Below are positions 3,461 to 13,376 of a DNA stretch of 64,000 nt, piece by piece. Position 1 is the first letter of the stretch, and each line of letters begins with the position of its first letter. The position numbers and the translations under genes are program-made. The notes beneath the pieces are model-generated. The model made no database searches. It was not told where the DNA came from and worked only from the letters and a program-made list of their open reading frames with translations. This stretch comes from Lacinutrix venerupis (GTDB taxonomy: Bacteria > Bacteroidota > Bacteroidia > Flavobacteriales > Flavobacteriaceae), in contig NZ_RCCH01000005.1 in NCBI RefSeq assembly GCF_003663945.1, forward strand, positions 186,001 to 250,000, given 5' to 3'.

Positions 3461-3480
3461 CTAAAAAAAATCCGTCGATT

Positions 3481-6400
3481 ATGAAAAATCACTCATTTGC
3501 AAACAAAGCGGTTGTTAGAACACCGCTAAGCGTTAAAAAAATTGATATTACTTGGGAGGAAATCCAAGAAATATTTAAAGTTCCAAAACACAGAGAGGCT
3601 TTATTTATTGGCTCTCCAAACATTTACAAAGCTCTCGAAATGTGGGAAAAAGGTGAAGCTTTTCAAACTGAAGACGAACTTAAAAACCTTAAAGGTTCTT
3701 TATATAAATATACCTCCAGGCTGGCAAACCGTTGTACTCCTTTTGGATTATGGGCTTCAGTAAGTACTATTGATTTAGCAAAAGAAACAGATATTAATGT
3801 TGCTGAAGGTGAATTAAAACGTACAACAAAATTCGATATGTATTTTTTAGGTGAAATTTTGCCAGAAATCACTAAACATAAAGAAATTAGAGAGGTTTTA
3901 AAGTACTATCCTAACAATTCTATGTATAAAGTTATGGATAAGTACCGTTTTGTAGAATATTACTTTAAAGACAGAGCAAGATGCCATAAAATATCTGAAG
4001 TTGATATTAATGAATATTTAGAAAAAACCATTGAAATTGCTCAAAACGGTGCCACAATAGAACAACTTATAAAGCCTATTATAGATGATAATATTAGTGT
4101 TGAAGATGCTAAAGCATTTATTAATCAAGTTATCGATAGTCAGTTTTTTGTTAATGAATTAGAATTCACTTTAACTGGTGACGATTATTTAGAAAGTCTT
4201 TTAACTGTTTTAAAAGAAGACCGTTTTAATTTTTATGAAGCAAATGTTGTAAAAGAACTACTTATTTCTCTAAAAAGTAAAATTTCTGCTATAGATGATA
4301 ATGTATTTAACAACCCAGAAAAATATAGAGAGATACACGAACAAATAGAAAAAGAAATTCAAGAAGCGGACATTACTAAACTGTTTCAAGTAGACAGCTT
4401 TAAAAGTTTACCTAATGCAACTTTAAGCTATTCTATTGTTAAAAAACTTCGTGTAGCAATAGTTGCTTTAAATAAATTAAGTAATGAAAGGTCTAATGCT
4501 GCATTGGATGATTTTAAAAAGAAATTTCAAGAACGTTATGAAGAGTATGAACAGCCACTTATAAATGTTCTTGATCCAGACTTAGGAATAGGATACGCCA
4601 AAGGTGCTAGTGCAAAAACACCTTTAGTCGATAAATTAGCAATTAAAGGGAATCAAGCCTCAAGCAAACAAATTAATTGGACAGATAAAACTGGATTTTT
4701 ATTTAAAAAGGCACTTAAGGCTTTAAAAGAAAATGCTGTTGAAGTTGAATTAACAGACGAAGAAATTAATCAATTTGAAGAGAAAGAAAGTTTATATCCA
4801 GATAGCTTTTCAACGTTTTTTAATGTGTTTCATGAAAATGGTGAAGAAAAAGTTCATTTAAAAACTGTTTGGGGACCTTCAGCAAATGGATTAATTGGTC
4901 GTTTTGCTCATTTAGATGAAACCATAGAAGAGATGTGTAACACCATTCATGAAAATGAAAAAGCATTATATCCAGATAAAATTTTAGCTGAGATTATTCA
5001 TTTACCTCAAGCTAGAACAGGTAATATTCTATATCGAAAGTTTCAAAGAGATTATGAAATTCCATATTTAGGAAACTCTTCTTTAAATGAAGATCACCAA
5101 TTAAATGTTGACGACTTATACGTTTCTGTAAAAAGAGGAAAAGTAATATTACGCTCTAAACGCTTAAATAAAGAAATTATTCCACGCCTTGGAAACGCTC
5201 ATAATTATAGTGCTAACGCATTACCTATTTATCATTTTTTATGCGACTTACAAGACCAAGAGCAATCTGGATTAGGATTTAGTTGGGGAAGTTTACAAAA
5301 CGAATTCAACTTTTTACCAAGAGTAAGCTATAAAGGTGTTGTACTTTCTCGTGCTACTTGGAATTTGAATAAAAAAACAATGCAATCTATTTTAGATAAT
5401 AAAAAAGAGGACATTATAAAAGTAGTTAAAGACTTCCAAAAAGAAAGAGATATCCCTAATATTGTGGCTTTTGCTCAAGGAGATAATGAAGTTGTTTTGA
5501 ATTTTGAAAATGATTTAAGTTGTAAGACTTTTTATTACATGATGAAAGGAGAGCATTTTATTCAACTTAAAGAATTCTTTTTTGAAGAAGATACTGTAAC
5601 TGGATCATATTGTAATGAATTTGTTTTACCATCTTATAAAAATGCTCCAAAAGCAAAAGACATTAAACCAACACAGCAATTACAAGCACAAAAAGCAACG
5701 TTACAAAAAGCATCATATTCTACTGGAGATGAGTGGCTTTATTACAAATTTTATTGTGGTGAGCGTGTAGGAGAAAAATTACTTAACCAAGCCATTAAGC
5801 CTATAGTTGACGAACTAGAAGCTAATAACCTAATTGATAAATGGTTCTTTATTCGTTATTATGATAAAGATGGACACCATTTAAGATTTAGAATTCACTT
5901 AAATGACCAAACAAAATTCTCTGAGTGTGTCTTAATTATTAAAAAACACATACAACCATTCGAAGACAACCTGTTAATTTGGAAAACACAAACAGATACA
6001 TACTTAAGAGAATTACAACGTTATGGATTTGAATCTATAGATGCTACAGAAGATTTGTATTATAATGATAGCGAAGCTACTGTTAAATTTGCAGATATGA
6101 TTGAAGGTGATGCTGGAGAACGTGTGCGTTGGTTATTTTCTTTACTTTCTATGGATCATTTACTTAATGACTTTGGATTTAATGTAAAACAAAAAATGCA
6201 GCTATTAAACATCGCTAAAACAGCATTTGGTAAAGAGTTTAACAAAACTGGAACATTAAACAAGCAAGTAAACGAACTGTACAGTGAGAACATGTCTAAT
6301 ATTGAAATTTTCTTAAATGAAGAGGCTAAAGCTGATATGTATGAACCATTGTGGAATATTTTAAAAGAACGTTCTGTTAAAAACAAAACAGTTGTACAGA

Positions 6401-6600
6401 ACTTAAAATCTCTGGCAGATCAAAATATCCTGCCTGGTGGATTAGAAAATACTGTACTTAGTTACTTACACATGGTTTGTAACCGTATTTTCTTATCAAA
6501 ACAACGTATACATGAAATGGTTGTTTACGATATGCTTTTTAAATATTACAGTAAGCAAATGCACATACAAAAAAAAAGAAAAGCAGTAACCACTGCTTAG
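3481..6600 (+). CDS. lanB: Full-length class I lanthipeptide dehydratase (LanB)
   Basis: Dehydrates Ser and Thr of precursor peptides to Dha and Dhb through glutamyl-tRNA-dependent glutamylation and elimination. I chose ATG 3481 (1039 aa), which begins MKNHSFANKAVVRTPLS like other LanBs; an upstream ATG at 3439 lies inside the ABC gene. The motif NRCTPFGLWASVS near residues 83-95 matches the conserved R-x-TPFG region of the glutamylation domain. The C-terminal third (STGDEWLYYKFYCG, then RYYDKDGHHLRFRIHL near 790-805) is the elimination domain, also called the thiopeptide-type biosynthesis domain. Both halves are in one chain, so this is a class I lanthipeptide enzyme rather than a split thiopeptide enzyme. 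It lies 20 nt behind the exporter and ends in a terminator. Confidence 0.93.
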   Translation: MKNHSFANKAVVRTPLSVKKIDITWEEIQEIFKVPKHREALFIGSPNIYKALEMWEKGEAFQTEDELKNLKGSLYKYTSRLANRCTPFGLWASVSTIDLAKETDINVAEGELKRTTKFDMYFLGEILPEITKHKEIREVLKYYPNNSMYKVMDKYRFVEYYFKDRARCHKISEVDINEYLEKTIEIAQNGATIEQLIKPIIDDNISVEDAKAFINQVIDSQFFVNELEFTLTGDDYLESLLTVLKEDRFNFYEANVVKELLISLKSKISAIDDNVFNNPEKYREIHEQIEKEIQEADITKLFQVDSFKSLPNATLSYSIVKKLRVAIVALNKLSNERSNAALDDFKKKFQERYEEYEQPLINVLDPDLGIGYAKGASAKTPLVDKLAIKGNQASSKQINWTDKTGFLFKKALKALKENAVEVELTDEEINQFEEKESLYPDSFSTFFNVFHENGEEKVHLKTVWGPSANGLIGRFAHLDETIEEMCNTIHENEKALYPDKILAEIIHLPQARTGNILYRKFQRDYEIPYLGNSSLNEDHQLNVDDLYVSVKRGKVILRSKRLNKEIIPRLGNAHNYSANALPIYHFLCDLQDQEQSGLGFSWGSLQNEFNFLPRVSYKGVVLSRATWNLNKKTMQSILDNKKEDIIKVVKDFQKERDIPNIVAFAQGDNEVVLNFENDLSCKTFYYMMKGEHFIQLKEFFFEEDTVTGSYCNEFVLPSYKNAPKAKDIKPTQQLQAQKATLQKASYSTGDEWLYYKFYCGERVGEKLLNQAIKPIVDELEANNLIDKWFFIRYYDKDGHHLRFRIHLNDQTKFSECVLIIKKHIQPFEDNLLIWKTQTDTYLRELQRYGFESIDATEDLYYNDSEATVKFADMIEGDAGERVRWLFSLLSMDHLLNDFGFNVKQKMQLLNIAKTAFGKEFNKTGTLNKQVNELYSENMSNIEIFLNEEAKADMYEPLWNILKERSVKNKTVVQNLKSLADQNILPGGLENTVLSYLHMVCNRIFLSKQRIHEMVVYDMLFKYYSKQMHIQKKRKAVTTA

Positions 6601-6620
6601 ATTAATAGCAACTACATTTA

Positions 6621-6648
6621 AAAGAGCGCTAATTAGCGCTCTTTTTTT
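6621..6648 (+). terminator. Intrinsic terminator after lanB
   Basis: A perfect 20-bp palindrome (AGAGCGCTAATTAGCGCTCT) followed by a run of T lies between the dehydratase stop and the reductase ATG at 6668. The reductase therefore depends on read-through or on its own promoter. Confidence 0.85.
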
Positions 6649-6667: not shown

Positions 6668-7762
6668 ATGAGAGTATTAGGCGTATTAAGCCCATCATTA
6701 GCAGAAAAATTAGACGAAGCAGACAAGTATATTTTGGAGATTGATTCTCTAAAAATACCGCTAGCACTAATACATGTGCCAGATATCGAAATTGATGAAA
6801 ACAATGAGAATAATAGCGATATGGTTTTAGTAAAGAAAAAAGGCTTTTCTTTAAACTATAGAGATTTTGGTGTTATTGAAAATGCGTGGCATAAATTAAA
6901 AAAATCAGATCAAGACACATACTACCCTATTGGTTCTGAGTTTTGTGGAGAAGTTTTAAAGATTGGGAAAACTGTAAATAATTTAAAAGTTGGAGATTAT
7001 GTGATTGCTAATTGTGCTTATCCTATTGCTCCTTTTAATGCAACTCCTGGAATACCAAGCAATCATGGTAGTAAAGAGTTGGAAATATTTCATAAAGGAA
7101 AATTAATAAAAGTTCCTAAAAATATTCCTGTAGAACAAGCTGCTGGAATGAGTATTGGCGTCCAGACTGCTACATCTATGATAAGAAAAGCAGATATTAA
7201 AGACGGACAAAATGTTTTGGTGACTTCTGTAACCTCAAATACTTCTTTAATTATACTTAATTTTTTAAGAGATAAAAACTGTACTATTTATGGATTATCA
7301 TATTCTGGAAAAGAGACTAAAAAGGTAAAAGAACTATTTCCTTTCATTAAAACTATTTATAATTTTAAAGATAATAATATACCTAAAAACTTGTTTTTTG
7401 ATGCTGTTCTAGATCCTTTCGCAGATACACACATTGTAGCCTTACAGCCTAATTTAAATTTTGAAGCACATTATGTTACTTGTGGGATGTTTAATCAATC
7501 TAGTGAAAAGATACAAAGCAAAGATTCATATACCAACTTGCCTTCATTAATTAGTAATTTAATCTCTAAAAACATACAAATTAGAGCTAATTGTTTAGGT
7601 ACTACCGAAGATTTAGAAAATGGTTTAAAAATGTTAAGTAGAGACGGTTCAAGTAATATTCCTGTTGATGAAGTATTTAATAAGGAGGAAGAAATTAATC
7701 TATTTTTAGACAAGTCTTTTTTAAAAACTAAAAAAATTGGAAAAACAGTCTTTATATATTGA
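6668..7762 (+). CDS. MDR-superfamily oxidoreductase, possible dehydroamino acid reductase
   Basis: Medium-chain dehydrogenase/reductase-like protein (364 aa). A GroES-like half (IGSEFCGEVLKIGKTVNNLKVGDYVIANC) precedes a nucleotide-binding half (DGQNVLVTSVTSNTSLIILNFLRDKNCTIYGLSY). The usual zinc-ligand His of the GHE motif is Ser here (GSEF), so a zinc-independent reductase is likely. Known LanJA enzymes such as LtnJ belong to the same superfamily and reduce Dha to D-Ala in lanthipeptides, so a tailoring role is a reasonable inference from position. A quinone or enoyl reductase of unrelated function is the alternative. A hairpin separates it from lanB, and it runs toward the precursor array with a shared terminator between them. 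Confidence 0.7.
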   Translation: MRVLGVLSPSLAEKLDEADKYILEIDSLKIPLALIHVPDIEIDENNENNSDMVLVKKKGFSLNYRDFGVIENAWHKLKKSDQDTYYPIGSEFCGEVLKIGKTVNNLKVGDYVIANCAYPIAPFNATPGIPSNHGSKELEIFHKGKLIKVPKNIPVEQAAGMSIGVQTATSMIRKADIKDGQNVLVTSVTSNTSLIILNFLRDKNCTIYGLSYSGKETKKVKELFPFIKTIYNFKDNNIPKNLFFDAVLDPFADTHIVALQPNLNFEAHYVTCGMFNQSSEKIQSKDSYTNLPSLISNLISKNIQIRANCLGTTEDLENGLKMLSRDGSSNIPVDEVFNKEEEINLFLDKSFLKTKKIGKTVFIY

Positions 7763-7888
7763 TTATTTTAATAAAAAATTTGGTTTTCTAAAGAGAATAA
7801 AACATTCTCTTTACTAGAATACAGACAGAAAAGATTATCGTTTTAGATAATTTTTTTTTCTTCTTCAATTAAACAAACCTAATTTTAT

Positions 7889-7926
7889 AAAAAAACCTGA
7901 ACAAATGTTTTGTTCAGGTTTTTTTT
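7889..7926. terminator. Bidirectional terminator between reductase and precursor array
   Basis: Stem CCTGAACAAA/TTTGTTCAGG flanked by A and T runs, so it can end transcription in both directions. It separates the rightward biosynthetic genes from the leftward precursor array. A second perfect 9-bp stem (AAAGAGAAT/ATTCTCTTT, 7790-7812) sits just downstream of the reductase without a T run. Confidence 0.85.
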
Positions 7927-7943
7927 AATTTTAATAATCTATT

Positions 7944-8084
7944 TTACTCTCTTGTAACTAATAGACTAATAATAACTCCTACACATACTGGAGAAGTTCC
8001 TCCGTTTACATCTTGTAATTGGTTATCATTTAATTCTGTTACTGAATTCTTATTGAAGGCTAAGTTTGTGTTTTGTGTTTTCAT
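7944..8084 (-). CDS. Lanthipeptide precursor 1 (core allele A)
   Basis: 46-aa precursor. The leader MKTQNTNLAFNKNSVTEL continues to a VNGG cleavage site, followed by the 17-residue core TSPVCVGVIISLLVTRE. LanB could dehydrate Thr1, Ser2, Ser11 and Thr15. The single Cys5 allows only one thioether ring, most likely to residue 1 or 2. This is the last unit of the array relative to transcription, and its leader matches the other array members. Confidence 0.88.
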   Translation of the reverse strand: MKTQNTNLAFNKNSVTELNDNQLQDVNGGTSPVCVGVIISLLVTRE

Positions 8085-8113
8085 AATTTGTGTTTTTTAG
8101 TGTTTAATAAATT

Positions 8114-8254
8114 TTATTCTCTTGTAACTAATAGGCTAATAATAACTCCTACACATACAGGAGAAGTTCCTCCGTTTACATCTTGTAATTGGTTATCATT
8201 TAATTCTGTTACTGAATTCTTATTGAAGGCTAAGTTTGTGTTTTGTGTTTTCAT
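8114..8254 (-). CDS. Lanthipeptide precursor 2 (core allele A)
   Basis: 46-aa precursor, identical in protein sequence to precursor 1 with core TSPVCVGVIISLLVTRE after the VNGG site. It differs from unit 1 only by silent bases, such as AGC for AGT and CCT for CCA in the core. It is part of the 170-bp tandem array. Confidence 0.88.
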   Translation of the reverse strand: MKTQNTNLAFNKNSVTELNDNQLQDVNGGTSPVCVGVIISLLVTRE

Positions 8255-8283
8255 AATTTGTGTTTTTTAGTGTTTAATAAATT

Positions 8284-8424
8284 TTATTCTCTTGTAACTA
8301 ATAGGCTAATAATAACTCCTACACATACAGGAGAAGTTCCTCCGTTTACATCTTGTAATTGGTTATCATTTAATTCTGTTACTGAACTCTTGTTAAAGGC
8401 TAAGCTTGTGTTTTGTGTTTTCAT
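8284..8424 (-). CDS. Lanthipeptide precursor 3 (core allele A)
   Basis: 46-aa precursor with leader MKTQNTSLAFNKSSVTEL and the same 17-residue core as units 1 and 2. The leader carries the N-to-S changes at residues 7 and 13, shared with units 4 and 5, while the core is still allele A. It is therefore a hybrid of the two unit types, suggesting recombination within the array. Confidence 0.88.
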   Translation of the reverse strand: MKTQNTSLAFNKSSVTELNDNQLQDVNGGTSPVCVGVIISLLVTRE

Positions 8425-8453
8425 AATTTGTGTTTTTTAGTGTTTAATAAATT

Positions 8454-8594
8454 TTATTTTCTTGTAATTAATAGGCTAATAATAATCCCTGTACATACTG
8501 GAGAAGTTCCTCCGTTTACATCTTGTAATTGGTTATCATTTAATTCTGTTACTGAACTCTTGTTAAAGGCTAAGCTTGTGTTTTGTGTTTTCAT
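8454..8594 (-). CDS. Lanthipeptide precursor 4 (core allele B)
   Basis: 46-aa precursor with core TSPVCTGIIISLLITRK after VNGG. Compared with allele A it has V6T, V8I, V14I and E17K; the new Thr adds a dehydratable residue next to Cys5 and the last change reverses the C-terminal charge. The leader matches unit 3. Confidence 0.88.
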   Translation of the reverse strand: MKTQNTSLAFNKSSVTELNDNQLQDVNGGTSPVCTGIIISLLITRK

Positions 8595-8623
8595 AATTTG
8601 TGTTTTTTAGTGTTTAATAAATT

Positions 8624-8764
8624 TTATTTTCTTGTAATTAATAGGCTAATAATAATCCCTGTACATACTGGAGAAGTTCCTCCGTTTACATCTTGTAATT
8701 GGTTATCATTTAATTCTGTTACTGAACTCTTGTTAAAGGCTAAACTTGTGTTTTGTGTTTTCAT
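8624..8764 (-). CDS. Lanthipeptide precursor 5 (core allele B)
   Basis: 46-aa precursor encoding the same protein as unit 4 (core TSPVCTGIIISLLITRK). It is almost identical at DNA level, with one silent base in the leader (AGT for AGC at codon 7). Confidence 0.88.
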   Translation of the reverse strand: MKTQNTSLAFNKSSVTELNDNQLQDVNGGTSPVCTGIIISLLITRK

Positions 8765-8793
8765 AATTTGTGTTTTTTAGTGTTTAATAAATT

Positions 8794-8934
8794 TTATTTT
8801 CTTGTAATTAATAGGCTAATAATAATCCCTGTACATACTGGAGAAGTTCCTCCATTTACATCTTGTAATTGGTTATCGTTTAATTCTGTTACTGAACTTT
8901 TGTTGAAGGCTAAGTTTGTGTTTTGTGTTTTCAT
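8794..8934 (-). CDS. Lanthipeptide precursor 6 (core allele B)
   Basis: 46-aa precursor with core TSPVCTGIIISLLITRK and leader MKTQNTNLAFNKSSVTEL, which is intermediate between the two leader types. It is the first unit of the 170-bp array relative to transcription; its upstream spacer diverges after about 14 bp from the ATG. Confidence 0.88.
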   Translation of the reverse strand: MKTQNTNLAFNKSSVTELNDNQLQDVNGGTSPVCTGIIISLLITRK

Positions 8935-8959
8935 AATTTGTGTTTTTAATGGTTATTAT

Positions 8960-9103
8960 TTATTGAGTAATTGTTTTAATTTTTTCTTTTATAGGGTCTA
9001 TTATTACTGTCCAGCTTCCACCATTAACAGTCGCCATAGAATCAATATTTAATTCTATTAAAGAATTCTTATTAAGCTTAAGCTTGTTATCTTGTGTTTT
9101 CAT
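8960..9103 (-). CDS. Cys-free lanthipeptide-type precursor 7
   Basis: 47-aa precursor too short for routine ORF calling. The leader MKTQDNKLKLNKNSLIEL runs to VNGG, then the core SWTVIIDPIKEKIKTITQ. The core has Ser and Thr but no Cys, so LanB could dehydrate it but no lanthionine could form within it. It shares the SWTV opening with precursor 11. The conserved leader and operon position support it as a real gene. Confidence 0.8.
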   Translation of the reverse strand: MKTQDNKLKLNKNSLIELNIDSMATVNGGSWTVIIDPIKEKIKTITQ

Positions 9104-9112
9104 AATTGTTTG

Positions 9113-9268
9113 TTAATTTATAACTGTTACAGTTATTGATTTTTCTGAAATTGTCATACAATTTGAACAAACGATTCCTGTTCCTCCGTTTACAGAGTGA
9201 ATTTCTGCATCTGTTAATTCTGTTATTGCGTTCTTTTTAAATACTAGTTTTGTGTTTTGTGTTTTCAT
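9113..9268 (-). CDS. Lanthipeptide precursor 8 (CSNC core)
   Basis: 51-aa precursor with leader MKTQNTKLVFKKNAITEL and VNGG. The 22-residue core opens TGIVCSNCMTISEKSI and ends TVTVIN. Two Cys in a CSNC motif and several Thr or Ser allow up to two rings. The core family is shared with precursors 9 and 10. Confidence 0.83.
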   Translation of the reverse strand: MKTQNTKLVFKKNAITELTDAEIHSVNGGTGIVCSNCMTISEKSITVTVIN

Positions 9269-9305
9269 AATATTAATTTGATTTTTATTGTTGTTAACGG
9301 ATATT

Positions 9306-9455
9306 TTATTTAATAGTCATTGTTATTGTTATCGTCATACAATTAGAGCATACAAAACCTGTTCCTCCGTTTACAGCGTATGTTTCTTGATCTGTTAATT
9401 CTGTTATTGATTTTTTTCTAAAATCTAATTTTAATTTGTTGTCCTGTGTTTTCAT
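9306..9455 (-). CDS. Lanthipeptide precursor 9 (CSNC core)
   Basis: 49-aa precursor with a leader beginning MKTQDNKLKLDFRKKSITEL and ending AVNGG. The core is TGFVCSNCMTITITMTIK. After the CSNC motif the tail alternates Thr with hydrophobic residues, so full dehydration would give alternating Dhb residues. The leader is identical to that of precursor 10, 216 bp away. Confidence 0.83.
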   Translation of the reverse strand: MKTQDNKLKLDFRKKSITELTDQETYAVNGGTGFVCSNCMTITITMTIK

Positions 9456-9521
9456 AATTTTAATTTGGTTTTTATTGTTGTTAATGATTATTTCTTCAAT
9501 TTCTATTAATAATGTTTAAAT

Positions 9522-9671
9522 TTATTTAATAGTAATTGGTATAGTTACTGTCATACAATTAGAGCATAAAAAACTTGTTCCTCCGTTTACAGCGTATGTT
9601 TCTTGATCTGTTAATTCTGTTATTGATTTTTTTCTAAAATCTAATTTTAATTTGTTGTCCTGTGTTTTCAT
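9522..9671 (-). CDS. Lanthipeptide precursor 10 (CSNC core)
   Basis: 49-aa precursor with the same leader as precursor 9 but core TSFLCSNCMTVTIPITIK. The pair shows recent duplication with changes confined to the core, while CSNCMT is held constant. Confidence 0.83.
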   Translation of the reverse strand: MKTQDNKLKLDFRKKSITELTDQETYAVNGGTSFLCSNCMTVTIPITIK

Positions 9672-9687
9672 AATTTTAATTTGGTTT

Positions 9688-9846
9688 TTAAAGTGGTCCA
9701 TTATCTATCCAAGTTCCATAGGTTGTTGCCCTAATTATACTTTCTACAACAGTCCATGATCCACCGTTTATATTTTCAATTTGTTTGTCGTTAAGCTCGA
9801 CAATTACATCCTTTTTAAAGTTGAGTTTTTTCTTTTGTGTTTTCAT
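9688..9846 (-). CDS. Cys-free lanthipeptide-type precursor 11
   Basis: 52-aa precursor with leader MKTQKKKLNFKKDVIVEL and an INGG site. The core starts SWTVVESIIRATTYGTWI and ends DNGPL. It has no Cys and is rich in Thr, Trp and Ile. It shares SWTV with precursor 7. Confidence 0.78.
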   Translation of the reverse strand: MKTQKKKLNFKKDVIVELNDKQIENINGGSWTVVESIIRATTYGTWIDNGPL

Positions 9847-9861
9847 AATTTCTAGATTATT

Positions 9862-10041
9862 CTAAAATGAAATATTATCGTTTTGTGATGGATTATCTGC
9901 AACTATAGATATTTTTATAGTTAATGTTGGCCCTGATGATTGGCTCCATTGGCATCCTCCATTTACAGCTATAGATTCAGAACTATTTAACTCTGTAATT
10001 GAATTTTTGTCGAACTGTAATTTTGAACTTTGTGTTTTCAT
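9862..10041 (-). CDS. Lanthipeptide precursor 12 (Cys at core position 1)
   Basis: 59-aa precursor, TAG stop. The leader MKTQSSKLQFDKNSITEL runs to VNGG and the core starts CQWSQSSGPTLTIKISIV. The single Cys directly follows the cleavage site, so a ring would have to close onto a downstream Dha or Dhb, unlike precursors 1-6. The tail is polar (Asn, Ser, Asp). Confidence 0.78.
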   Translation of the reverse strand: MKTQSSKLQFDKNSITELNSSESIAVNGGCQWSQSSGPTLTIKISIVADNPSQNDNISF

Positions 10042-10080
10042 ATTTTGTAATTATTATTTTAATTGTACTTTCAATTTATT

Positions 10081-10263
10081 TTATCTAGACTGTATATCTT
10101 CTCCTTGACTACCGTTTGTAATTATAGAGACTGTAATTATAGATGTAGGAAGCATTGGTGAAATAGAAGAGACTGTTCCTCCATTAATTTGGCTTAATTG
10201 GTTAGTATTTAATTCGCTAATTGAACTTTTCTTAAAAACTAGTTTTGAGTTTTGTGTTTTCAT
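10081..10263 (-). CDS. Cys-free lanthipeptide-type precursor 13
   Basis: 60-aa precursor with leader MKTQNSKLVFKKSSISEL and INGG. The core starts TVSSISPMLPTSIITVSI and ends with a polar, charged tail. No Cys is present but Ser and Thr are abundant. The longer in-frame start at 10323 adds a 20-residue basic extension absent from every sibling, so ATG at 10261-10263 is preferred. Confidence 0.82.
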   Translation of the reverse strand: MKTQNSKLVFKKSSISELNTNQLSQINGGTVSSISPMLPTSIITVSIITNGSQGEDIQSR

Positions 10264-10274
10264 AATGTTTTGTT

Positions 10275-10400
10275 TTAAATTCTTTTTGTGAAAATTTTTA
10301 ACTTTATTAATAGCTTTTTCCATAAAGATTTCTCTTGTTGGATTTCTACTATTGTTCTCTTTTTTAAATGCTCTTTAAAAGAGTTTTTAATCTCTTCCAT
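10275..10400 (-). CDS. Small basic ORF upstream of precursor 13
   Basis: 41-aa ORF not recognised as any family. It begins MEEIKNSFKEHLKKRTIVEI and ends in a basic stretch WKKLLIKLKIFTKRI that could form an amphipathic helix. It sits 17 nt behind the 39-aa ORF and 11 nt before precursor 13, a spacing that suggests translation within the same operon. It lacks the leader and GG site. It could be a small immunity or accessory peptide, or a remnant of a larger gene. Confidence 0.35.
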   Translation of the reverse strand: MEEIKNSFKEHLKKRTIVEIQQEKSLWKKLLIKLKIFTKRI

Positions 10401-10417
10401 AATTTTAAATTGTACTT

Positions 10418-10537
10418 TTAATCTAAAATTATGGCATCGCCTAATGAAAGGCAAACGGTAGTAAACTCTTCTTGTAGCTCGTTAGAGATAAAGCCTAAGG
10501 CTTCATTTTCCTGATTTTTGTGGTGTAATGTTTTCAT
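10418..10537 (-). CDS. Small first ORF of the precursor operon, atypical
   Basis: 39-aa ORF. It begins MKTLHHKNQENEALGFISNE and ends TTVCLSLGDAIILD. It shares the ATGAAAACA start with the precursors but has no EL...NGG leader. Its C-terminal part contains two Thr, one Cys and one Ser, so it might be a divergent precursor without a double-Gly site, or a regulatory leader peptide. It would be the first cistron of the array. Confidence 0.45.
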   Translation of the reverse strand: MKTLHHKNQENEALGFISNELQEEFTTVCLSLGDAIILD

Positions 10538-10573
10538 TTTTTCGAATTTTTTAGATTTATAATTAATTCTTTT

Positions 10574-10622
10574 ATGAAAAGTTGATTACTAACAAACCAT
10601 AGTGTGTTCATCAACTTTTCAT
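10574..10622. repeat. Perfect 13-bp inverted repeat upstream of the precursor operon
   Basis: ATGAAAAGTTGAT at 10574-10586 is mirrored exactly by ATCAACTTTTCAT at 10610-10622 with a 23-bp spacer. It lies 37-85 bp upstream of the first small ORF of the leftward array. An operator or a 5'-leader hairpin are both possible. No transposase is nearby. Confidence 0.7.
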
Positions 10623-10703
10623 CTCAAGCGCTATCGTGCCTAAGCAATATTTAATTATGTATTCCGAAAAAATAAGTGAAGACTCTTTTATAATATATTC
10701 TAC

Positions 10704-10734
10704 TTTGTAGTGATACAAAAAATATATATATTTG
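10704..10734 (+). promoter_or_regulatory. Consensus Bacteroidota promoter for a small RNA
   Basis: TTTG at 10704-10707 and TATATTTG at 10727-10734 are separated by 19 bp, matching the -33/-7 consensus TTTG-N19-21-TAnnTTTG of this phylum. It points rightward, where no ORF of useful size follows before a terminator at 10791-10822. Confidence 0.7.
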
Positions 10735-10739
10735 TAGAG

Positions 10740-10822
10740 TATTCAATGTTGACGGACACGGAATACATGAAAATTTGTGTTTTCAAAATTAACAGGGCTT
10801 TACAGAGCTCTGTTTTTTTTTT
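10740..10822 (+). ncRNA. Putative ~80-nt RNA complementary to precursor start codons
   Basis: Defined by the promoter at 10704-10734 and by an intrinsic terminator: stem AACAGGGCT/AGCTCTGTT (one G-U pair), loop of 6, then about 8-10 T. Its middle, TTTGTGTTTTCAAAATT (10774-10790), matches the antisense of the precursor start region at 16 of 17 positions for the six tandem units, the mismatch being in the ATG. The segment TGAAAA-TTTGTG-TTTTCA would form a hairpin presenting UUUGUG in its loop. It may act in trans on the array, or may be a relic of a precursor start now read from the other strand. The exact ends are inferred. Confidence 0.5.
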
Positions 10823-10993
10823 GTTCTAATTAATAAATGTTTTATTTGAGTTATAATTAATAGAACATATCTTTCGATGGTTCAAAGTAAGTTTAAATAA
10901 AAGTCACTTCCAAACTAAGCTACCGTATATTTATAAAAAATACCATGCTTTTTCAAAATGTAAAACATTTAAAATCAATTAATTAAAGCAATG

Positions 10994-12817
10994 TTAGCTA
11001 TTTTTAATTTCTTCAATCTTTTTTATATAAACAGTAGGAGAAATACCTGTAGCAACTTTAAAATAACGTGAAAAAGCATCTGCATTTTTATAGCCCATTT
11101 CTTCTGCAATTCCTTTTACAGAATAAGAGCGCAAACGCTTGTTGTTTTTCAGTTCTAATATAGCATGATTGATTCTAAGCTCATTAATGTAAGTACTAAA
11201 AGATTTTTCTAAATGAGTATTTACTATTTTAGAGAGGTATGAGGTGTTTGTTTTGAGTTTTTTAGCCATATTATGCATAGTACAGTCTTGGCGTAAATAA
11301 TATTGCTTATCCTCTAATTTTTGAATTTTTACTAATATTTCTTCTACTTTTTTATCATCTATAACATAACCAGAGTCTTCTTCTTCATTTTCTTTTTCTC
11401 TAGTAGTGTTAACTTTTTCTGTTTTGGACAGCTCTATTTCTACCTCTTTTTTTAAATCATTTTCACCTACTATATCCTGTGTTTCTTTAAGCTCTTTATC
11501 TATTTCTTCTTTTTTATTAGCAATAGGACCTAAAGTAGTAGTCTTCTTTTTATCTTCATAAGCTTTAATTTTAATCATAAGTTCGTTAAAACGTTTCTGA
11601 TTTTGAAAAGCTTTCATTTTGAAAAAGAAAAACAAAGCAACTATTAAAACTATTAGCGAAATACTAATAAATGTCCATACCCAATTATTTTTTTTATATT
11701 TTTCTTTTTCTAAAATCTCTTGGTCTAACTCTAATTCAAAATCACTTTGTAATGAAGCTACTTTTTTATTTAAATTAAAGTTATATAAAGTCTCTAAAGT
11801 AGCTAGTTTGTTCTCTGAAACTTTTTGTTTTTCCTCTAAATATTTATAATAAAATACATCTGCCATCTTACTATCCTTAAGAGCATTATAGGTATCTGAA
11901 ATCAGTTTATAGTATTTTATTTTTTGTAATGGTGTTTTATCTATTGTACTTTCTATTATTATATTTAAATCTGTTATAGCAGCAGTAAAATTAGAACTCA
12001 AAAAATTAATTTCTGCATTTCTATATTTAATTTCATTAATAAATTCCTGATTTTTTAGTTTTATTGCACAAGTTAGAGCTTCTGCGCTTGCTTTTTTTGC
12101 AGAATTGAGCTTGTTATTAAACACATCTATTTTAGATTTTAAAAAATTCATGTGATAAACAAACTCACAATCATTTTTAGCTTTTGCTTCAGCTAAACCA
12201 TCTGTTATTAACTGTTCTGCTTCCGTTAATTTTTCTGCCTTTATATAAGCCTCAATTAATGTTTTTCTAATAAACCTTAAATTAAAATCGCCAAGTAAAA
12301 TTTTATTGTTATAATCTGTTTTAAGCTCTTCTAAAGCGTTATTAGATTTACTTATTTTTAATTTTAATGATCTTATATATGCTTCAACAGTTTCTATAGA
12401 CTTAGAGTCTTCATTTTTTTCTGCTAAGGCTAAAGTTTGTTGATATAATCTTAAACTCTCTCTAAAACGTTCTTTATTCTCTAAAATCCTAGCTATACTA
12501 TGCTTTGTTTGAATAATATCTTTAGGTTTCTCTGCTATACTTAAATTTTTATAGTGATAAAAAAGCGTACTATCCGTTTGGTTCATTATCTCATGAGCAG
12601 CAGCTATGGATGAATTAGTAATTATAATATTTTCTATATTGTTTTCAGATTCTAAAATACTAAGGTATTTATGAAGATAGTTTAAAGCCTTGGCTGGATG
12701 ACTATAAATATTATTTCTAATGGAATCTTCTAATATTTGTTTATCCTGTTGTGAGAATGATTGAATTGAAAATAGAGATACAATAAATAGTATTATAAGT
12801 AATTTTAATGCTCGCAT
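10994..12817 (-). CDS. Membrane-anchored TPR-AraC transcriptional regulator
   Basis: 607-aa regulator with a signal peptide (cleavage after SFS), a long helical region with TPR-like repeats (about residues 40-350), one membrane segment near 376-398 (WTFISISLIVLIVALFFFF), an acidic linker and a C-terminal AraC DNA-binding domain from about 490. The latter contains two helix-turn-helix units (MAKKLKTNTSYLSKIV and GIAEEMGYKNADAFSRYF). The topology places TPRs outside the cytoplasm and the AraC domain inside. It lies next to the precursor array and points the same way, so control of the RiPP locus by an extracellular signal is an inference from context. A bidirectional hairpin sits about 46 bp upstream of its start. 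Confidence 0.88.
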   Translation of the reverse strand: MRALKLLIILFIVSLFSIQSFSQQDKQILEDSIRNNIYSHPAKALNYLHKYLSILESENNIENIIITNSSIAAAHEIMNQTDSTLFYHYKNLSIAEKPKDIIQTKHSIARILENKERFRESLRLYQQTLALAEKNEDSKSIETVEAYIRSLKLKISKSNNALEELKTDYNNKILLGDFNLRFIRKTLIEAYIKAEKLTEAEQLITDGLAEAKAKNDCEFVYHMNFLKSKIDVFNNKLNSAKKASAEALTCAIKLKNQEFINEIKYRNAEINFLSSNFTAAITDLNIIIESTIDKTPLQKIKYYKLISDTYNALKDSKMADVFYYKYLEEKQKVSENKLATLETLYNFNLNKKVASLQSDFELELDQEILEKEKYKKNNWVWTFISISLIVLIVALFFFFKMKAFQNQKRFNELMIKIKAYEDKKKTTTLGPIANKKEEIDKELKETQDIVGENDLKKEVEIELSKTEKVNTTREKENEEEDSGYVIDDKKVEEILVKIQKLEDKQYYLRQDCTMHNMAKKLKTNTSYLSKIVNTHLEKSFSTYINELRINHAILELKNNKRLRSYSVKGIAEEMGYKNADAFSRYFKVATGISPTVYIKKIEEIKNS

Positions 12818-12862
12818 TATAAGGAATTAATCTAATTTAAGCCAAGCTACTAAAAAAAATAA

Positions 12863-12919
12863 AAGCATCCTAAAGCATTCTATAAAACATAATATTTATA
12901 GGTGTTTTGATGCTTTTTT
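12863..12919. terminator. Bidirectional hairpin upstream of AraC regulator
   Basis: Outer stem AAAAGCATC/GATGCTTTT and inner stem CTATAAA/TTTATAG, with T-rich tracts on both sides in the matching orientation. Nothing obvious would be terminated from the right. It may be an attenuator in the regulator's leader or insulate it from the orphan precursor. Confidence 0.55.
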
Positions 12920-12978
12920 TTATACTGTTTTTTTATAAATTTAGGGAGTTATATTTTTTATTATAAGTTTTAATATTA

Positions 12979-12986
12979 GATATTTG
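12979..12986 (+). promoter_or_regulatory. Probable -7 box of the orphan precursor
   Basis: GATATTTG, 7 of 8 positions of TAnnTTTG, lies 33 bp before the ATG of the orphan precursor gene. Confidence 0.4.
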
Positions 12987-13018
12987 AAGTAACTAATAAC
13001 CCTTTTAAAATCTTTTTT

Positions 13019-13180
13019 ATGAAAACTCAAGCAAAAAAACTAAACTTTAAAAAAAGTAACATTACAGAATTAAACAGTAATATGCTAATGACAATTAATG
13101 GAGGTAGCGATGTTGAAGCTGCAGGAGAAGCTATAACGACATCTAGATACACAAGTCATTTGTGTGATAAAATTAGTTAA
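13019..13180 (+). CDS. Orphan lanthipeptide precursor on the opposite strand
   Basis: 53-aa precursor with the same leader type, MKTQAKKLNFKKSNITEL, through INGG. The core starts SDVEAAGEAITTSRYTSH and ends LCDKIS. Thr, Ser and a single Cys near the C-terminus permit one C-terminal ring (for example Thr or Ser to Cys), a layout unlike any of the array cores. It is separated from the array by the AraC gene, transcribed the other way and has its own terminator, so it is probably regulated independently. Confidence 0.82.
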   Translation: MKTQAKKLNFKKSNITELNSNMLMTINGGSDVEAAGEAITTSRYTSHLCDKIS

Positions 13181-13196
13181 AAAATTAAGATTTTTT

Positions 13197-13233
13197 AAAA
13201 AAGCGTGTAATTTTAAAATTACACGCTTTTTTT
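13197..13233. terminator. Terminator after orphan precursor
   Basis: Near-perfect stem AAGCGTGTAATTTT/AAAATTACACGCTT with flanking A and T runs, 16 bp after the precursor stop. Confidence 0.85.
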
Positions 13234-13376
13234 ATAGTGTAGTTTTTATACTCTTTAACCCGAACTAAGTTAAATGCTCTAATCTTTATTCTCACAAATC
13301 AATTTAAAAGAGACTATATAACAAAGACATTACTTAATTGTTATACATTTTAACGCATTATAAAAACTTTAATTAC

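Follow-up and report, generated by a model that had tools for sequence, protein, structure and literature searches.

A conserved, predicted small RNA gene beside a lanthipeptide precursor array in Lacinutrix venerupis, with complementarity to the precursor start codons and to the LanB dehydratase gene

Where a RiPP cluster contains precursors by the dozen, the cell has to control a growing gene family and match it to a single enzyme, and how this is achieved is the wider question here. The locus lies in a stretch of 64,000 nt from Lacinutrix venerupis, called here the window, which is part of contig C5 of the genome labelled G000. The left part of the window encodes on the + strand a HlyD protein, a C39-peptidase ABC exporter, the dehydratase LanB and an alcohol-dehydrogenase-like gene, and then holds 13 lanthipeptide precursors (- strand, from 10263 to 7944), a small RNA unit and a regulator with TPR and HTH_18 domains (- strand). 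The original prediction, made from the sequence of this locus alone, was that the RNA carries an antisense to the precursor start codons and could tune the whole RiPP family. A conserved RNA gene with specific start-codon complementarity was indeed found; the proposal was nevertheless incomplete, since the longest match of the RNA lies in the coding sequence of LanB. The favoured reading is a dedicated trans-acting antisense sRNA that uses one segment for two kinds of pathway mRNA, and we consider it likely, slightly more so in the light of the LanB site, though well short of established.

The promoter and the terminator that had been proposed for the unit are both present (Table 1). The promoter, which by its sequence is of the Bacteroidota type, has a -7 box that reads TATATTTG or TATCTTTG in nine of the ten units described below and TGTATTTG in the degenerate tenth. 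The predicted fold of positions 10742-10822 reaches -21.4 kcal/mol (z -4.0; none of 200 shuffles was as good) and comprises three hairpins, the third of which is the terminator, whose 5' arm overlaps the RNA segment that matches LanB. Terminator-like sites number six in 7700-13300, compared with 1.0 in shuffles. No Rfam family matched the RNA unit in 7800-13200 up to an E value of 5, and the interval 10560-10990 holds no listed ORF of at least 40 aa on either strand. Having its own promoter and an intrinsic terminator, the unit has the build of a trans-encoded antisense sRNA (GibS-like); it does not overlap a target gene on the opposite strand, as RNAs of the cis-antisense class (DonS-like) do.

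Table 1. Features of the RNA unit, its putative targets and its paralogues (window positions unless a locus is named)
Feature	Position	Strand	Basis or remark
Promoter	10704..10734	+	Sequence; TTTG 10704-10707, N19, TATATTTG 10727-10734
Predicted small RNA, about 80 nt	10738..10820	+	5' end inferred; conserved core 10736-10812
5' hairpin GUAUUC/GAAUAC, apical GUUGACGGAC	10739..10766	+	Apical part common to type B units
Middle hairpin UGAAAAUUUGUGUUUUCA	10768..10785	+	Folding
Antisense segment TTTGTGTTTTCAAAATTAACAGG	10774..10796	+	10773-10786 against precursor starts; 10774-10796 against LanB coding sequence
Intrinsic terminator, 10-pair stem and U run	10791..10822	+	Stem 10791-10814, including G-U
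TGTATTCCG	10658..10666	+	Forms an inverted pair with CGGAATACA (10759-10767)
Putative target array of 13 lanthipeptide precursors	7944..10263	-	ORF pattern; NF038153 in the one scanned
Precursor starts	10263, 10041, 9846, 9671, 9455, 9268, 9103, 8934, 8764, 8594, 8424, 8254, 8084	-
Lone precursor (ATGAAAACTCAAGCA), predicted weak target	13019..13180	+	Rank 20 of 54 starts
Lone precursor loci	window 13019; L020:11237; L021:6069; L022:5031; L023:4720; L041:8043; L042:4928-5721
LanB dehydratase	3481..6600	+	PF04738 and PF14028; start 3481 taken from relatives
Site CCTGTTAATTTGGAAAACACAAA in LanB, inside the stretch coding for NLLIWKTQT	5970..5992	+	Complementary 22/23 to RNA
TPR and HTH_18 regulator	10994..12817	-	Domain matches; convergent with RNA
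Type B paralogues, beside other regulator-array pairs	L022:6906-6987; L020:7414-7495	+; -
Small protein of about 40 aa, loci	window ~10418-10537; L020:13730-13852; L021:8542-8664; L022:2432-2554; L023:2121-2243	- (window)

The same unit was found beside homologous arrays in relatives, a check that the original prediction had itself proposed. A 201-nt query matched 5 of the 13 genomes of the genus, with second copies in two, and a covariance model recovered the unit in the same five and in two of three genomes of a second genus, giving ten units in seven genomes: seven with the antisense, two of type B without it and one degenerate. The covariance model added no carrier in further samples of 397 and 198 genomes, where the stricter filters applied to samples of more than 40 genomes may miss weak copies. 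Two weak matches were rejected as units, one in G054 (contig C7) being mainly the terminator of a gene and the other (G000:C6) having neither a -7 box nor a U run; another weak match (23.8 bits) lies at 6570-6648 of the window. A decayed copy with a changed antisense and an altered terminator stem is present in G373 (L043:9987-10075). The core, 10736-10812, is identical to that of the window at 77/77 positions in three relatives (G009, G004 and G006), at 76/77 in G012, 71/77 in G206 and 72/77 in G373. In the first three, the 100-nt flanks differ by 24-41% (66-79 of 104-111 columns kept) and LanB keeps 495-500 of its first 600 nt, as against 77/77 in the RNA core; G012 is close to the window throughout (flanks 99/101 and 97/103). 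Helix covariation was not above shuffles (81/500), and the type A units hardly vary. Conservation as an independent unit is what would be expected of a trans-encoded sRNA gene, and in our view a real conserved RNA gene is very likely.

The place of the unit is fixed: in 10/10 cases it lies between a regulator and the array after it, on the strand opposite to both. By ORF starts and a search for regulator homologues, no unit accompanies at least seven other regulator-array pairs (L020, L021, L041, two in L042, L073 and L074). Among the 13 genus genomes, a regulator homologue (E <= 1e-40) together with a close LanB occurs in exactly the five RNA carriers, and a LanB at 36% is also found in the non-carrier G011. 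In the second genus, G206 and G373 have both the RNA and a close LanB and G407 has neither; among 299 genomes of the family a close LanB occurs only in G000 and G206, with a LanB at 37% in G188. The named contigs that carry a regulator homologue are from Lacinutrix and Bizionia.

What does the RNA match in the array? One precursor that was scanned (8624-8764) matches the class I lanthipeptide family NF038153 (E 2.4e-07), and six near-identical precursors form tandem units of 170 bp (7944-8934, - strand). As had been predicted, TTTGTGTTTTCAAAATT at 10774-10790 can pair with the start of these six at 16 of 17 positions, TGAAAACACAAA is present in 10/13 array precursors, and a second complementary site precedes the ATG in all six tandem units. 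The motif ATGAAAACACAA has 14 copies in G000, 11 of them in array precursors; copies per genome range from 6 to 32 in the seven carriers and from 1 to 8 in nine non-carriers, and those of the reversed pattern from 0 to 6. A perfect complement of at least 10 nt in at least 13 of the 14 window precursors was attained by 2 of 1000 shuffled RNAs, and the observed mean by none of 1000; 17 of 1000 had a 12-nt complement in one precursor or more. The precursors are paralogues and are not independent of one another.

An accessibility-aware duplex scan of the full RNA (10738-10820) against -40 to +40 of 54 window starts placed the 13 array precursors at ranks 1-13, the next gene scoring -4.7. Their mean of -8.4 compares with -4.3 +/- 1.4 for shuffled RNAs (0/128 as good). 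When the RNAs of relatives were set against their own precursors, the medians were -8.0 to -8.6 in G012, G009, G004, G006 and G373, from a narrower precursor list that misses the tandem VVDL precursors of L020. The precursors of G206 match poorly (median -3.8; 12-mer in 1/11). Complementarity beyond chance thus extends to the precursors, weakly in G206, as well as to LanB. This pattern makes control of the precursors by the RNA a fairly likely proposition, and such control may take the form of repression.

The first codons of the array precursors point in the same direction. In array precursors starting with MKTQ, counted from a wider list of 143 array and 10 lone precursors, Lys2 is AAA in 106/106, Thr3 is ACA in 96/106 (43/45 after thinning) and Gln4 is CAA in 99/106, whereas ACA makes up 290/519 of the Thr codons further along these ORFs and 24/55 of those near the start of other genes. 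The rest of the leader codons are less strict (GAA 51/71, TTA 47/79, AAT 45/79). By locus, ACA at Thr3 accounts for 13/13 in the window, 25/25 in L021, 29/30 in L020, 12/12 in L042 and 7/8 in L022, with lower values in L023 of G012 (5/9), L041 (2/3) and L043 (3/6). Unlike the array members, lone precursors have ACT at Thr3 in 10/10, and their pairing with the RNAs lies between -2.4 and -4.3; they lie on the strand opposite to the regulator, upstream of it, and all ten start with ATGAAAACTCAAGCA. Several arrays of the regulator-array pairs without a unit also use ACA at Thr3. The bias may have a cause other than RNA pairing, since no genome with a comparable array but lacking the RNA was found as a control, the arrays of G011 and G188 having been rejected for their distant LanB (36-37%) and a different precursor-like ORF nearby.

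The longest match lies elsewhere. RNA positions 10774-10796 are complementary at 22/23 to LanB positions 5970-5992, a pairing longer than that with the precursors; nowhere else on the + strand of the window does the RNA match better, and none of 1000 shuffled RNAs equalled it, the longest shuffled match being 17. The site is identical in 7/7 carriers, including G206 whose LanB protein is only 71% identical, and keeps 13/23 in G188, which has no RNA. Across six full LanB genes (that of G004, which is split, was left out) the run 5966-5996 is invariant over 31 nt, the next longest of 764 runs being 11 nt. Only 137 of the 634 LanB codons whose amino acid is invariant (M and W aside) are themselves invariant. 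Just two of 1034 windows of 8 codons are fully invariant, and both lie at the RNA site. The protein sequence can hardly account for such strict conservation. Constraint beyond the protein is therefore seen at both kinds of site, as the 31-nt run of LanB and as the Thr3 codon of the precursors, and the frozen LanB site would also account for the unaltered antisense of G206.

When LanB was scanned in 77 windows, the RNA site lay in the two that scored best (-7.1 and -6.8). Net pairing energies are modest, at -4.6 to -7.1 kcal/mol, since the terminator arm must open, and the site, at about codon 830 of 1039, lies so deep in the gene that it cannot block initiation. Functional pairing of the RNA with the LanB mRNA is nonetheless quite probable. 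In G004 the LanB gene is split in two overlapping pieces (C1:2342056-2345179; L050, L052), through either a mutation or an assembly error, and the RNA site is intact. The LanB start was also considered as a target of the 5' hairpin and was rejected: it reached rank 13 of 54 (-8.3) only with a 5'-truncated RNA, and with the full 5' stem it was matched by 116/296 shuffles in the window and 74/296 for the mean of four genomes. The apical loop of this hairpin has its complement in a CCGTC at 3472-3476, ahead of the LanB AUG; the CCGTC is kept in 5/5 Lacinutrix carriers, degenerate in G373 and absent in G206.

These observations may be combined in the following model. The RNA would be transcribed divergently from the lanthipeptide array and would pair over 12-14 nt with codons 1-5 of the precursor mRNAs (AUGAAAACACAAA), and in some of them with the bases immediately 5' of the AUG as well; by analogy with GibS, this pairing would block translation initiation. 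On the LanB mRNA, the 23-nt pairing, which has one mismatch and lies far inside the coding sequence, would most likely lead to decay. The RNA could in this manner hold down the peptides and their dehydratase together, with the HTH_18 regulator possibly controlling the balance. Two neighbouring RNA positions fit such a model: A10785 mismatches LanB and suits the U in the AUG of the precursors, and A10786 pairs with LanB and mismatches the A of that AUG. One mismatch per target at adjacent positions is taken here as a sign of dual targeting, and the segment looks like a compromise between the two. That it is tuned between the first codons of the precursors and the frozen LanB stretch, serving either joint gating or a built-in LanB-mRNA sponge, is put forward only tentatively.

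Could LanB be the sole real target? The precursors and LanB share the peptide KTQ, and a preference for common codons could make part of the shared match, the precursor complementarity then being a by-product. The LanB match is the longer one and is kept even in G206, where the precursors match poorly. However, this account does not provide for the excess of ACA at Thr3 in array precursors and not in lone ones, for an A10785 that suits the precursor AUG rather than LanB, or for the upstream ACACAAATT site, present in 21/143 array precursors as against 0/121 other genes for ACACAAAT; we consider it unlikely. Decay of the LanB mRNA and a sponge effect are not separated by the data. In a pure sponge the 23-nt site would titrate the RNA, and precursors would be translated only when LanB mRNA is plentiful. 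The deep coding position, the longer pairing and the strict synonymous conservation would suit this arrangement, but LanB does not surpass the precursors in net energy, and as the whole explanation the sponge seems a little less probable still.

The type B paralogues bear on a further alternative, that the RNA acts mainly by binding a protein through its 5' hairpin and terminator, with pairing secondary, or that the stretch acts chiefly at the DNA level, through paired half-sites for the HTH_18 regulator. Type B units keep the -7 box, the apical 5' hairpin and the terminator, differ in the middle, where they have no antisense, and hold an 11-codon frame, MFADMDTKFL(L/Y). They had no good partner among the precursors (pairing medians about -0.2), and a target search in five loci gave matches of at most 15 nt, one mismatch included. 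The inverted pair TGTATTCCG / CGGAATACA flanks the RNA promoter and may constitute regulator half-sites; in the type B unit G006b both halves are altered together (TTTTGTATC / GATACAAAA) and are still complementary. Yet the frozen LanB site and the precursor codons would be left unexplained, which makes the alternative improbable. It had also been suggested that the unit descends from a copy of a precursor in which the ATG had turned into TTG; this origin is not supported, the precursor match being 17 nt against 23 nt for LanB and the type B units sharing the promoter, 5' hairpin and terminator and not the antisense. The readings of the unit as a precursor relic or as a gene for a small peptide, to which TTGAAAACACAA on the - strand and an open + frame from 10746 might point, were rejected as very improbable in view of the 77/77 core, the lack of a stop in that frame before the terminator and T-run lengths that differ between relatives.

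The favoured sRNA, with its two kinds of target, resembles several known systems in part. In IstR-1/TisB and OhsC/ShoB, an sRNA gene is divergent from a small-peptide gene and has limited complementarity near its translation start. The same layout and limited complementarity near starts are seen here; unlike in those pairs, the RNA faces many leader-bearing lanthipeptide precursors accompanied by LanB and an exporter. With the scanned precursor in NF038153 and LanB and a C39 exporter in the cluster, the locus does not appear to be a type I toxin-antitoxin system. GibS of Bacteroides thetaiotaomicron is described as a trans-encoded sRNA that lies beside one of its targets, pairs over the start codons of BT_0771 and BT_3893 and is reported to repress both, with weak binding in vitro for a predicted site deep in the BT_1871 coding region (PMC7366714). 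The likeness would be that of a Bacteroidota trans-encoded sRNA adjoining a target and pairing with start codons; GibS is described there as having a single-stranded 5' seed and metabolic targets (PMC7366714), unlike the RNA of the window, whose segment lies in the middle hairpin and the terminator arm and whose targets would be amplified RiPP precursors and LanB. Rfp18 of Flavobacterium psychrophilum is a structured sRNA with predicted pairing to several protease mRNAs (PMC9723704); it too is flavobacterial and directed at several mRNAs of one class, although its targets differ. No report of sRNA control of lanthipeptide precursors was found among titles and abstract openings, in a search that took in subscription journals only to a small extent.

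An RNA that reads both the precursors and LanB would answer the question of control, and one RNA may govern the whole lanthipeptide pathway. If so, any new precursor copy that retained the MKTQ start would come under the same control, the price for the enzyme gene being a stretch frozen at synonymous positions; the RNA would either gate peptide and enzyme together, or the LanB mRNA would release precursor translation once the dehydratase message suffices. The model makes clean predictions for recoding. Two minor observations concern the array side of the unit. An inverted repeat, TGAAAAGTTGAT...ATCAACTTTTCA, lies at 10574-10622 in the array leader region. Additionally, in the five Lacinutrix carriers the array that adjoins the unit is headed by a small, conserved protein (about 40 aa; FISNEL..EF..V..SL.DAI..D) that has no GG leader.
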